Origin: Corynespora cassiicola
Lineage: Eukaryota > Ascomycota > Dothideomycetes > Pleosporales > Corynesporascaceae
NCBI GenBank assembly: GCA_022059125.1
Contig: JAEUWY010000019.1
Location: 310,001 to 374,000, forward strand
DNA length: 64,000 nucleotides
Reading direction: 5' to 3'
How positions within the stretch are numbered: the stretch's first letter is position 1; the number at the start of each line of letters is the position of its first letter. Positions 20,451 through 30,899 of the stretch are shown piece by piece. The notes beneath the pieces were generated by a model. That model ran no database searches, was not told the origin of the DNA, and saw only the letters and a program-made list of their open reading frames with translations. A program made the position numbers and the translations under genes.

Positions 20451-22697
20451 CTAGCAAGAAGATTCTGGTCGGCCGCAAACATCGAGAAACGCTCCGTTAG
20501 ATCCAGGCAGGCGACCCCCACCGATGGCGGGGTCAGAGTCGGACCCATCCTGCCTCTTCTGTACTGCCTCGTCGTCAAAGAATGGGCCCTCCAGGGGCTC
20601 TCCGAGGGCATCAATGTCGGGGATGAGGTCCTCCTGCCTCTTCTGAGCGGGCTGGTTGACAATGTCGTTGATGGTGAGAATGTCAGCAGCAGCACCAAGG
20701 CCACCAGCACCGACCTCCGCAACATTGCCAGCACGGGAAAGACCACCGCGGCGCTGAGGATCGGGGAAGGCCTCGCGCTTCGCGGGGGCGGGCTGGTTGA
20801 CAATGTCATTGATGGTCAGGACATCAGCAGCGGCACCAAGACCACCGGCTCCGACCTCAGCGGCATTACCCAGGCGGCGGAGACCACCGCCGCGGCGCTG
20901 GGGGTCAGCCTCTGCCTCACGCTTCGCAGGGGCGGGTTGGGTAAGAGCTCCAATAGTACCGATATCAGCAGCGGCACCAAGGGCGCCAGCGCCAACCTCA
21001 GCTGCATTACCCAGGCGGCGGAGACCACCGCCACGACGCTGAGGGTCGGCCTCTGCCTCGCGCTTCGCCGGAGGAGGCTGAGAGATGGCGACAATAGTAC
21101 CAACATCGGCAGCAGCTCCAAGGGCGCCAGCGCCAACCTCAGCTGCATTACCCAGGCGGCGGAGACCACCGCCACGACGCTGGGGGTCGGCCTCTGCCTC
21201 GCGCTTCGCCGGAGGAGGCTGAGAGATGGCGACAATAGTACCAACATCGGCAGCAGCTCCAAGGGCGCCAGCGCCAACCTCAGCTGCATTACCCAGGCGG
21301 CTGAGACGACCGCGGCGCTGAGGGTCTGCCTCTGCCTCACGCTTCGCAGGGGCGGGCTGAGAGATGGCGACAATGGTTCCGACATCAGCAGCAGCTCCCA
21401 GAGCACCAGCACCGACTTCAGCAGCGTCGCCGAGGCGGCCAAGACGACCACGGCGTTGAGGATCGGCCTCACGCTTCTGAGCAGGGACAGGCTGAGTGAG
21501 GGCACCGATAGTGGCAGCGTCGGCAGCAGCACCAAGAACGTCACCACCAACCTCAGCAGCGTTCCCGAGGCGAGAAAGGCGACCACGGCGTTGAGGATCG
21601 GCCTCTGCCTCACGCTTCTGAGCAGGGACAGGCTGAGTGAGGGCACCGATAGTGGCAGCGTCGGCAGCAGCACCAAGAGCGTCACCACCAACCTCAGCAG
21701 CGTTCCCGAGGCGAGAAAGGCGACCACGGCGTTGAGGATCGGCCTCTGCCTCACGCTTCTGAGCAGGGACAGGCTGAGTGAGGGCACCGATGGTGGCAGC
21801 GTCGGCAGCAGCACCAAGAGCGTCACCACCAACCTCAGCAGCGTTCCCGAGGCGGCTGAGACGACCGCGGCGCTGAGGGTCTGCCTCTGCCTCACGCTTC
21901 TGAGCAGGAGCGGGCTGAGTCAGAGCAACAATGGTGGCGGCGTCACCAACAGCTCCAACGGCATCGCCAGCACCACCTAGAGCACTCCCAAGGCGAGAAA
22001 GGCGACCACGGCGTTGAGGATCGGCCTCTGCCTCACGCTTCTGAGCAGGGACAGGCTGAGTGAGGGCACCGATGGTGGCAGCGTCGGCAGCAGCACCAAG
22101 AGCGTCACCACCAACCTCAGCAGCATTTCCGAGGCGGCTGAGACGGCCGCGGCGCTGAGGGTCGGCCTCTGCCTCACGCTTCTGAGCAGGAGCTTCGGGA
22201 ACGGGCTGGACAAGAGCGCCAATGGTAGCGGCGTCACCGACAGCCCCGATAGCATCACCGGCACCACCAAGTGCACTCCCAAGGCGAGAAAGACGGCCAC
22301 GGCGCTGAGGGTCGGCCTCGCGCTTCTGAGCAGGAGCTTCGGGAACGGGCTGGACAAGAGCGCCAATGGTAGCGGCGTCACCGACAGCCCCGATAGCATC
22401 ACCGGCACCACCAAGTGCACTCCCAAGGCGAGAAAGACGGCCACGGCGCTGAGGGTCGGCCTCGCGCTTCTGAGCAGGAGCTTCGGGAACGGGCTGGACA
22501 AGAGCGCCAATGGTAGCGGCGTCACCAACAGCCCCGATAGCATCACCAGCACCACCCAGTGCGCTCCCAAGGCGACCGAGGCGGCCACGGCGCTGGGGAT
22601 CGGCCTCGCGCTTCAGAACATCGCCCTGAGCAACGGGAGCGGCAAAGGTCATGCCAGCCGTGAAGGCGAGAATGGCGGCAGCTGTAGAGGCACGCAT
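20451..22697 (-). CDS. Kex2-processed repeat protein (KEP), 14 tandem peptides
   Basis: Intronless, 748 residues. Residues 1-19 are a signal peptide (MRASTAAAILAFTAGMTFA). After a short pro-segment come 14 repeats of 40-44 residues, each starting DPQRRG and followed by a Lys-Arg site, then two non-repeat tail peptides: 16 Lys-Arg sites in all. The spacers after Lys-Arg are EA, EAEA or, once, EAFP. Each core has an Arg-rich head (RGRLSRLG), a Gly/Ala-rich helical or GxxxG-like middle and a Pro-rich end (QPVPAQ). The 14 cores lack Cys, Tyr, Trp, Met and Lys. This architecture matches fungal KEPs, a class that includes the repellent Rep1 of smuts and precursors of pheromones, dikaritins and Ece1. 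No UstYa/DUF3328, tyrosinase or methyltransferase gene is nearby, and the cores lack Tyr, so a cross-linked dikaritin is unlikely. Starting at the Met at codon 70 of the longer open frame places the signal peptide at the N-terminus. The function is unknown. Confidence 0.92.
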   Translation of the reverse strand: MRASTAAAILAFTAGMTFAAPVAQGDVLKREADPQRRGRLGRLGSALGGAGDAIGAVGDAATIGALVQPVPEAPAQKREADPQRRGRLSRLGSALGGAGDAIGAVGDAATIGALVQPVPEAPAQKREADPQRRGRLSRLGSALGGAGDAIGAVGDAATIGALVQPVPEAPAQKREAEADPQRRGRLSRLGNAAEVGGDALGAAADAATIGALTQPVPAQKREAEADPQRRGRLSRLGSALGGAGDAVGAVGDAATIVALTQPAPAQKREAEADPQRRGRLSRLGNAAEVGGDALGAAADAATIGALTQPVPAQKREAEADPQRRGRLSRLGNAAEVGGDALGAAADAATIGALTQPVPAQKREAEADPQRRGRLSRLGNAAEVGGDVLGAAADAATIGALTQPVPAQKREADPQRRGRLGRLGDAAEVGAGALGAAADVGTIVAISQPAPAKREAEADPQRRGRLSRLGNAAEVGAGALGAAADVGTIVAISQPPPAKREAEADPQRRGGGLRRLGNAAEVGAGALGAAADVGTIVAISQPPPAKREAEADPQRRGGGLRRLGNAAEVGAGALGAAADIGTIGALTQPAPAKREAEADPQRRGGGLRRLGNAAEVGAGGLGAAADVLTINDIVNQPAPAKREAFPDPQRRGGLSRAGNVAEVGAGGLGAAADILTINDIVNQPAQKRQEDLIPDIDALGEPLEGPFFDDEAVQKRQDGSDSDPAIGGGRLPGSNGAFLDVCGRPESSC
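20643..22601 (-). repeat. 14-unit coding tandem repeat
   Basis: Units of about 138-150 bp. Units 1-3 are one subtype (LGSALGGAGDAIGAVGD), units 4 and 6-8 a second (LGNAAEVGGDALGAAAD), unit 5 is mixed, and units 9-14 form a third (AEVGAGALGAAADVGTI). Units 2 and 3, and units 6 and 7, encode identical cores, and about 140 bp around 22170-22450 recur almost base for base. This points to recent unit duplication or gene conversion. Confidence 0.93.
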
Positions 22698-23964
22698 TTT
22701 GATGTTGGAAGAGGAAGGTTGAAAAATTTGGTTGGAATGAGGGTATCTGGAAATGAACAGGAAGTTCTGAATCGAAGAACTGAAGAAGCTGAAAGTCTGA
22801 AGGTAACCGGTACGATCGAGGATCTGAGCTTGCAGATGTGAAGAAGAAAAGTGAAGAGAAGAGAAGAGAAGAGAAGGCGAGTTGATGCTGTGATGCTGAT
22901 CCAAATGGCGAAGATGAAGCTACCCTTTATACGAACCTGCGGGCCCATTGTATGAAGCCATCATCTATATCGGCCTGTCCGTCATATGCCGTCCGCTGTT
23001 TACCAAACTGTCATTTGGCCGTGAAACAGACTCACAAGAGTCGGACAAATCTATCTCCTTCGACGCCAAGTGGTGTTGCATGATGGTTGTAAGTATACTT
23101 GAGGTCCGTGGGGAAAGATGCAATGTTCCGGAAGACTGTGGAAAGGTTAGCGTGAACGCACCCCAGACACGGGGCCAAGGCAGCGCATCAAGTGTCAGCC
23201 GCGTTGAAACAAGACACGCCCAGCAACGCCTTGGTCGACAGCGGCCGTGCGACTTGGTTGGAACACGTCTTGGAAGTCTTGTCGGCGCTCGGCGTTCATG
23301 GCGCATTGCCCAACCAGCGTAGGAGCAATCTGTCAGCCCAAACAAGGCACTCTGCAAGCGCTCATGGCATAGGATTCGGCGAAATGGCATTGTAACAGCC
23401 ATCGCGCAAAACCAGCCCAGACTATTTTTCGACACTTGTTTGCCCCGCAAACCCTCGCTCTACCTCTCACCTGGGGACGTCTTGGCAAGAACTGGCAACA
23501 ATTAAACCTCGGCGCGTGATGGTGTTTGGCTGTTTTGTTAGCCTAGATTGAGAGCTTGAGATCATGCGGAGTAAACAACTCAAGCCCAGATTGAAACCCT
23601 CAGCTTCATGCGATTAAAATGTTCAATGTCAACTTGAGAACTTGGGCATTGAGCGGACGAGGATGGCGGACTTGGTGACACTTGTGCGTCTGTCACGAGG
23701 CATCGACCAGGCCAACTACAAAGGCAGCGCTCTTCGCTCGTCTTTGACAAACCCAGATCATACGAGCGTTTCTTGCTTGAACAACCACCTTCTTCTCTTC
23801 TTCTCCAGCGGTCCGTAGTTTTGTCTTGGTACAATCTGCGGCTTTTGCCTTTTTTTTTCAAATCGCTTTTTCTGTTCCAAGTCAGCTCTTGTCTCTTGAC
23901 ATCTTCTCATCGCGACTCTTCTTTTTTTACTGTCTCACAACATTCCATCTGGCCAGTTTCCAGA
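22698..23964. other. Divergent intergenic region with GA-rich leader
   Basis: Contains the leaders of the repeat precursor and of the GPI-type protein. On the plus strand a GAAGA/AGAGAAG purine tract lies at about 22838-22878, and a matching CT-rich stretch lies just before 23965. No gene was recognised between. Confidence 0.5.
22925..22931 (-). promoter_or_regulatory. TATA box of the repeat-precursor gene
   Basis: TATAAAG on the minus strand, about 230 bp upstream of the start codon. This implies a leader of roughly 190-200 nt that includes the purine/pyrimidine tract. Confidence 0.4.
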
Positions 23965-29775: not shown

Positions 29776-30899
29776 ATGTTGTCCATTGCCTCCCTCGCCT
29801 TGTTCCTAGGAACCGTGGCCGCGGCTCCAGCTGCGGTGCCATCGAAACCTGCCGCAACTCCAGACTATAACAACCTCACCGTCGCGATCGTCCGCGCAGA
29901 ACCGGTCAACTGGCCCATGCCCATCATGAACACTAATTGGACTGGCCGGCAATTCGATCTTAATGCTACCGTGACAAAGGGCATCCGACTCATTGAAGAG
30001 GCAGCGAGCAACGGCGCCAACCTCGTCGTATTCCCCGAACTATGGTTCCCTGGGTACCCTCAAGGCATGGCCGACCGCTCTAGCATGGGCCCCTGGCTCG
30101 AAAACTACATTGAAAACTCCCTCACCCTCAACTCCTCCCACTGGACCGCCCTCGTCAAAGCCGCAACTGACAACAACGTCTACCTCTCCCCCGCCTTCTC
30201 CCACCGCGAGGACGGCAACATCTACATGGCCCAGGCCCTCATCCATCCGGACGGCTCCACCTTTGTACGCCACAAACTCCGCCCCTCGGGCGGAGAGCGT
30301 ACCCTCTTCTCCGACGGCACCACCGACGACTTGAAAGTCATTGCCACGCCCTACGGCCGCTGGGGCATCCTGGAGTGCTGGGAGCACTTCCATCCGTCCA
30401 TGACGTTCAACGTGCAGGCACAGGTCGAGACTTTGCACATCGCTGCGTGGCCGTGTACGTTGCCATTCCCGTCCCCCTTCTATGCTACCACCTCACTGAC
30501 GCCCGCCGAATAGATACTCCCGATGCGGGCGACCCGCTCGCCCAGCCCTTCGAAACCCTCGAGTCCAACCTCGCTGCTGCGCGCGTCTACGCCATCAGCG
30601 CTAACTCCCCCGTAGTATTTGCCTCAGTGGGCAACGTGCGCTTCTTGGATGCGCAGGGTGTGGACTTGGCGGTGGTCGAGGCGGCGGTTTCGACGGTGGA
30701 GCAGCCGCTGGCGTATCACTCGTTTAATACGACGGGATTGGCGGAGACGGAGCCTTATGCGCCGAATGATGAGCAGGCTTGGGGGACGCTGCAGCAGATT
30801 GTGCAGAGCTTTCCGGCGTATATTCCTAGGGTGAAGGGGAGCTTTGTAGCGAAGAAGCTTAATCCGATTGCTGAGATGTTGGCTGGGGAGGGGCACTAG
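29776..30899 (+). CDS. Secreted carbon-nitrogen hydrolase (nitrilase superfamily)
   Basis: Two exons (intron 30455-30513) give 354 residues. The catalytic triad is visible: Glu in FPELWFPGYP, Lys in RHKLRPSGGERTLFSDG, and Cys in GILECWEHFHP. It should hydrolyse a nitrile or amide. Unusually for this superfamily, residues 1-16 form a good signal peptide (MLSIASLALFLGTVAA), and there are N-glycosylation sequons (NLT, NWT, NAT, NSS), so the enzyme is probably exported or vacuolar. The residues after the catalytic Cys (WEHFHP) resemble the fungal nitrilase/cyanide-hydratase branch. Substrate choice cannot be settled by reading. Confidence 0.9.

Follow-up and report, generated by a model that had tools for sequence, protein, structure and literature searches.

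A predicted Kex2/Ste13-processed repeat precursor of Corynespora cassiicola and its relatives in other fungi

Background

Fungal Kex2-processed repeat proteins (KEPs) share a signal-type N-terminus, at least three repeats bounded by Lys-Arg (KR) pairs and presumed secretion of the repeat cores (PMC6339444, PMC7329392), and their functions are described as largely unknown (PMC9769878). We analysed a gene of this plan in a stretch of 64,000 nucleotides from Corynespora cassiicola (positions 310,001 to 374,000 of contig JAEUWY010000019.1, assembly GCA_022059125.1), hereafter called the window. An uninterrupted minus-strand frame (22697-20451, i.e. 748 codons and a stop) encodes 14 KR-bounded units, for which no conserved core motif named in the portion of PMC6339444 used here provides a fit.

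Ascomycete alpha-pheromone precursors likewise carry X-Ala/X-Pro (X-A/X-P) dipeptide heads after KR, described as the signature of Ste13 processing (PMC6339444, PMC9769878); the window family differs in the length, composition and motif of its cores and in having three paralogues with varied cores. In Ustilago maydis, Rep1 and Hum3 are precursors of 652 and 828 amino acids with 12 and 17 amphipathic imperfect repeats (34-55 and 31-36 amino acids) and Kex2 sites, and the Rep1 peptides, of 35-53 amino acids, are amyloid-like (PMC4617103). Compared by description and not by sequence, the window family resembles Rep1 in its Kex2 sites and in imperfect repeats of the 34-55 amino acid size, here predicted to be amphipathic, whereas it shows helical periodicity where Rep1 is amyloid-like. 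No Ustilago protein was among the relatives listed by our searches (about 8000 candidates each), the Rep1 sequence itself lying outside the comparison. KEP 490115 of Coprinopsis cinerea (PMC9769878) also has XA/XP heads, and its products in Pichia are Gln-initial and partly pyroglutamated; according to its description it differs in being from a basidiomycete and in giving products of 6-7 amino acids. Candida Ece1, the candidalysin precursor (PMC5784256), is similar in its KR-separated peptides, in processing by Kex2 and then Kex1 and in its amphipathic product, but it is described as holding one toxin peptide among its products, whereas the 14 window units are all alike and bear Ste13-type heads. 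The family considered here presents the Ste13 signature on long, predicted helical cores that lack pheromone motifs, in other genera as well as in three paralogues, with exact product ends that can be predicted and invariant residues that can be named.

Organization of the precursor and its paralogues

A preliminary description made from the sequence of the window had reported 14 repeats, DPQRRG at the start of each and 16 KR sites, and these counts were borne out on the 748-residue frame. All 16 Lys residues of the protein lie within KR. The units measure 42-46 residues from KR and 40-44 from DPQRRG (present in 14/14), with EA, EAEA or EAFP between the two. Cys, Tyr, Trp, Met and His are absent from the units and a single Phe is present, in the unit 14 head; this residue count agrees with the earlier statement that the cores lack Lys, Cys, Tyr, Trp and Met. 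Arg-Arg (RR) pairs number 17, i.e. 14 in QRRG and 3 in GLRR. The array was also detected by TRF (period 141, score 1301) and by a direct-repeat search.

The N-terminus, a putative signal peptide, is hydrophobic, and a model of the entire chain shows a helix at residues 3-17. Of residues 1-23, 22 are identical by eye in the Bimuria protein P0020; the two paralogues are also similar there, as are most relatives whose sequence reaches the N-terminus.

A genome-wide search recovered two paralogues, one of 606 amino acids on contig C4 (L009:2437-4257, minus strand) and one of 596 amino acids on contig C2 (L010:3906-5696, minus strand). Each carries 12 cores, and the three genes together hold 38 cores (hereafter own cores), 28 of them distinct. 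When the C2 protein and, separately, two relatives served as queries, the same three loci came back, together with a weak match on contig C5 (E 5e-4), which was set aside; its translation in one frame of one strand showed no precursor of this kind. Unit 7 of the C4 protein is nearer to the window cores than to its own neighbours (mean identity 0.66 vs 0.37), and so is unit 11 of the C2 protein (0.59 vs 0.47); two core types are therefore mixed within precursors.

Six comparisons were made, within single genes and between pairs of the three, and in each of them the mean synonymous difference was the larger one. Between cores of the window gene, the mean synonymous proportion (pS) was 0.54 and the non-synonymous one (pN) 0.18, and 88 of 91 pairs had the higher value for pS; in the C4 gene the corresponding differences were 0.65 and 0.15. 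The repeat plan is not due to chance, because two paralogues of the same genome keep it and synonymous exceed non-synonymous differences. Judged from these sequence comparisons, the arrays look old and kept by selection on the protein.

Relatives in other fungi

Three protein searches, each scoring the approximately 8000 candidates with most shared words, gave 3, 4 and 18 proteins, 21 different relatives altogether, among them proteins from Exserohilum turcicum, Bipolaris maydis, B. victoriae, B. sorokiniana, Pyrenophora teres, P. tritici-repentis and Bimuria novae-zelandiae. Exserohilum and Bimuria belong to the Pleosporales according to a taxonomy look-up, and Bipolaris and Pyrenophora are taken by us to do so as well. 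The relatives are annotated as 'hypothetical protein', P0009 also as 'Atrophin-1 domain', and Pfam families are marked on P0006 (PF00668, PF00550) and P0013 (PF01298). Given relatives in several related fungi, this looks like a real peptide family. A check of the Kex2-repeat literature on Exserohilum turcicum, Pleosporales and Pyrenophora, partly by titles and with KEP supplements outside it, did not retrieve the family; we rate it as new inside the known KEP class, with Umemura's 838 types standing outside this comparison.

Two features of Pyrenophora proteins were recorded apart from this. In P0006 of P. teres the peptide array continues into the non-ribosomal peptide synthetase domains PF00668 and PF00550, a joining that is perhaps an annotation or assembly fusion. 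In P0009, P0010, P0013 and P0014, segments with Ste13-type heads and a Cys pair alternate with the helical cores and are perhaps a second secreted peptide type.

Predicted processing and mature ends

In C. cassiicola, all 38 cores begin with one to three X-A/X-P dipeptides followed by Gln, vs 0/4 of the other KR-bounded segments. The heads comprise nine strings of 2, 4 or 6 residues (EA, TA, DP, EADP, EAEP, EAAP, EAEADP, EAFPDP and EASPEP). A recount was made over all 24 proteins, in which cores were recognized by the helix pattern without the head (30-50 amino acids, no Cys, identical cores counted once per genus). Heads were present in 102/102 cores and Gln came next in 89, i.e. 30/30 own cores, 25/26 in Bipolaris, 28/28 in Pyrenophora, 6/15 in Exserohilum, 0/2 in Bimuria and 0/1 in one other relative. 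Under a looser core definition, heads were found in 89/90 cores, 79 of them then continuing with Gln; the single miss was a segment of P. teres P0016 with a lone arginine before EAQ. The acidic spacers of Bipolaris arrays are headless (0/10 unique; the eleventh non-core segment is a truncated core).

As the X-A/X-P heads end directly before Gln, Gln is the predicted mature start, and the mature peptide probably begins two residues beyond the DPQRRG start. The preliminary boundaries accordingly seem misplaced, the heads pointing to Ste13-type trimming. A precursor from Coprinopsis in which XA/XP heads are combined with RR sites yields Gln- and pyro-Gln-initial peptides in Pichia, where RR sites are cut (PMC9769878).

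The genome also holds candidate enzymes for this route. A single kexin P-domain match was found genome-wide; its frame carries, as judged by eye, a membrane stretch at the C-terminus. Among four DPPIV_N matches, i.e. candidates for the Ste13-type dipeptidyl peptidase, the best looks by eye like a type II membrane protein and the next best like a secreted one. A genome search with Glu_cyclase_2 (PF05096) gave no match, and cyclase-like genes were reached through M28 instead: two genes (L034 and L036), singled out from 30 matches through the motif DGEEA...DSLYG, have signal-like N-termini by eye, and exon fragments of both match glutaminyl-peptide cyclotransferases in the PDB.

Several observations weigh against this processing scheme. 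Thirteen of the 102 headed cores start without Gln (9/15 in Exserohilum, 3/3 in Bimuria and the one other relative among them), and non-core segments are often headed as well (25/32 unique segments in Pyrenophora, 10/19 in Exserohilum), where the heads mark other products too. RR stands near the start of 14/14 window cores, and a Kex2 cut at QRR|G would remove the Gln from every one of them; RR is present in 1/12 and 0/12 cores of the two paralogues, and since 23/24 paralogue cores are without it, RR cleavage is not a conserved need. For both M28 genes, the top PDB match is named merely 'Peptide hydrolase'. The earlier suggestion of Lys avoidance as a guard against additional cuts finds no support: Lys is absent from 38/38 own cores and present in 35/60 unique core segments of the relatives, and 14/14 window cores have RR.

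From the plan kept in three paralogues, the homologues in four other genera and the kexin gene, a secreted Kex2-processed precursor, as first proposed, gains support at the level of sequence, although not with the core boundaries given then. We regard maturation by Kex2 and Ste13-type enzymes as very probable, and a pyroglutamate N-terminus, to which the cyclase-like genes and the Gln starts point, as fairly likely.

Core structure and periodicity

An AlphaFold2 model of the core, for which 23 of the 28 distinct own cores served as input, predicts a single helix over residues 2-32 with a predicted local distance difference test (pLDDT) of 86 and a predicted template modelling score (pTM) of 0.45. 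It agrees with the Gly/Ala-rich helix and Pro-rich tail of the preliminary description. Foldseek with this model gave no fold match in the PDB. A PDB sequence search with the core profile returned one 25-residue chain (E 0.019), dismissed as chance.

In own cores, register-free alignments show invariant Gly, Gly, Asp and Ile with spacings of 11, 4 and 4. Over 89 registered cores these residues are conserved at 0.99, 0.99, 0.97 and 0.93, in a register that loosely required them, and the periodicity of conservation has its maximum at 100 degrees (p = 0.002, the register being built on conserved residues). With register-free MAFFT alignments, periodicity of conservation at 100 degrees was found in own cores (p < 0.0001, and 0.0008 without the four invariant columns) and in relatives (p = 0.014). 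Hydrophobicity over all cores is also periodic at 100 degrees (p = 0.012), at a phase of 330 degrees vs 149 for conservation, i.e. on the opposite face, and in the relatives with p = 0.004 (MAFFT). The alpha moment exceeds that of shuffles and the beta moment falls below it. A glycine-zipper motif was left unused, as its frequency was 0.90 vs 0.47 shuffled in own cores and 0.76 vs 0.79 in relatives, i.e. without enrichment in the latter.

We consider an amphipathic helix likely on these grounds, with reservations that extend to the role discussed below. A helix modelled for an isolated 39-mer carries little weight; the relatives' conservation periodicity is gone without their four most conserved columns (p = 0.11), and hydrophobicity periodicity is not significant in own cores alone (p = 0.15). 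KD19 exceeds 1.6 in 0/30 own and 5/59 relatives' cores and own net charge is 0 to +2, values that are low for a lytic peptide. The fibrils of Rep1 are amyloid-like, whereas the beta moment of the cores lies below shuffles.

Proposed mechanism and alternative explanations

On balance we think it somewhat more likely than not that the gene encodes a secreted precursor with alpha-factor-like processing, giving outside the cell a Rep1-like blend of amphipathic, self-associating and surface-active peptides. The precursor would enter the secretory pathway, Kex2 would cleave after the 16 KR pairs, Kex1 would trim the C-terminal Lys and Arg, and a Ste13-type dipeptidyl aminopeptidase would remove X-Ala/X-Pro dipeptides and halt at Gln, which would then probably be cyclised to pyroglutamate. 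Each precursor would yield 14 related peptides, 38-42 residues long, all of them with a cationic N-terminus, an amphipathic helix (an invariant Gly/Gly/Asp/Ile face opposite a hydrophobic face) and a Pro-rich tail. Taken by itself, the surface-active role is a tentative proposal. It is conceivable, to a similar degree, that the alpha-factor line (Kex2, Kex1 and Ste13) is reused beyond mating in these Pleosporales, with 14 pyroglutamate-capped helices of about 40 residues associating through the Gly/Asp face and coating hyphal or membrane surfaces.

The peptides could instead be hormone- or pheromone-like signalling ligands with a receptor, the Ste13-type heads marking such use, which we hold to be unlikely. 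The heads are indeed alpha-factor-like, and the conserved helix face may serve binding. Yet pheromone repeats are typically near-identical within a precursor, whereas residues vary widely between the repeats of one array here. In Ascomycota the Ste13 signature is generally confined to alpha pheromones according to PMC6339444, which favours signalling; the same paper gives alpha pheromones 9-24 amino acids vs 35-44 for own cores, and Cys, Tyr and Trp occur in 0/38 own cores, so that its motif PYG[LM]P[IV]G and its Cys-pair motif are impossible in them. A DNA-pattern search of the genome for PYG[LM]P[IV]G, the Pleosporales motif, gave one match, vs 3 and 3 in the backwards control, and this was not a repeat precursor; the true pheromone gene of the genome was not found by this motif search. 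By core length and motif, the window gene is not an alpha-pheromone gene. If the surface-peptide interpretation is true, heads alone would be insufficient to call a KEP a pheromone. Rather improbable, in our estimate, is that the peptides target other organisms (plant host, bacteria or fungi) as membrane-active or effector peptides. An amphipathic helix with a cationic N-terminus would suit such a role, named homologues come mainly from the plant-associated genera Pyrenophora, Bipolaris and Exserohilum, and the C4 contig starts with telomere repeats, which places one paralogue about 14 kb from the chromosome end, near-telomere regions being a usual location of fast-changing effector genes. Net charge is low and hydrophobicity modest, however, selection between cores is purifying and not diversifying, and a homologue exists in Bimuria, which to our knowledge is not a pathogen genus.

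An uncut repeat protein with a structural task in the wall or at the surface, which the preliminary description had set against processing, is a very improbable explanation. Long imperfect arrays are common among wall proteins, but KR stands at each boundary, the heads make sense only after cleavage, and headless acidic spacers lie between KR sites in Bipolaris arrays. The model of the whole precursor, weak since built from only five sequences, lends it no support: mean pLDDT was 31, the signal helix was the sole structure and the chain as a whole showed no confident fold. We practically discount a dikaritin-type ribosomally synthesized and post-translationally modified peptide with cores cross-linked by UstYa. 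Cross-linking of the dikaritin/ustiloxin type needs an aromatic core residue, and own cores hold no Tyr, Trp or Cys. The genome has at least 26 UstYa (DUF3328) matches, and no such match was found within 200 kb of any of the three genes; the closest one, on contig C19, is about 211 kb off. Kex2-bounded repeats, on the other hand, are the dikaritin precursor plan (PMC7329392) and agree with it.

Sequence features and genomic surroundings

The features of the gene are collected in Table 1. All three precursors end, after the last KR, in a headless tail with two Cys (VCGRPESSC at 20454-20480 of the window, VCGIGVWSGC and VCGQEFSTC in the paralogues), which may be a separate C-terminal peptide. 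Pfam on the whole window protein gave ROXA-like_wH (E 3.5e-7, above its cut-off) and DUF3493 (E 0.0014, below cut-off); both were rejected as repeat artefacts, as no single stretch passed and 0/23 individually scanned cores matched either.

Table 1. Features of the repeat-precursor gene, in window coordinates
Feature	Position	Strand	Basis or remark
Single-frame open reading frame, 748 amino acids; presumed Kex2-processed repeat precursor	20451..22697	-	Reading of the frame, homologues, paralogues
Signal-peptide-like N-terminus, residues 1-20, MRASTAAAILAFTAGMTFAA	22638..22697	-	Hydrophobic stretch; likeness across genes and genera
KR-bounded array of 14 units, each an X-A/X-P head (4 or 6 residues) and a Gln-initial core (38-42 residues)	20643..22607	-	
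Example of a predicted mature peptide, unit 1, residues 35-76, starting QRRG and ending before KR	22470..22595	-	Residue positions; processing predicted
C-terminal region, two KR-bounded segments without Ste13-type heads (residues 688-713 and 716-748)	20454..20636	-	
TATAAA, 234 nucleotides 5' of the ATG	22926..22931	-	
Upstream/leader pyrimidine (CTTCT) tract	22842..22876	-	Two paralogues have one too

An alignment of the sequence upstream of all three genes shows GTATAAAG as invariant, and the CT tract is common to all. Pairwise local scores of these regions were 62-74 vs shuffled maxima of 35-42, part of the score being low complexity and the shuffles breaking the CT tract; the random-stretch control was void for two window rows owing to overlap with the query (maxima 518-524).

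A check for conserved neighbours, advised at the outset, was made at the paralogue loci and revealed no common cluster among the ten scanned open reading frames flanking the three genes (7 in the window, 2 at C4 and 1 at C2), six of which have a Pfam family and four none. The scanned frames of the window are of metabolic or regulatory kind and have nothing in common with the three next to the paralogues. Nearby ones encode cupin, transcription-factor, short-chain dehydrogenase/reductase and FAD-binding domains, and those farther away GH32, P450, carbon-nitrogen hydrolase, amidase and polysaccharide deacetylase domains. The carbon-nitrogen hydrolase frame (PF00795, window 29776-30513) has a signal-like N-terminus by eye.

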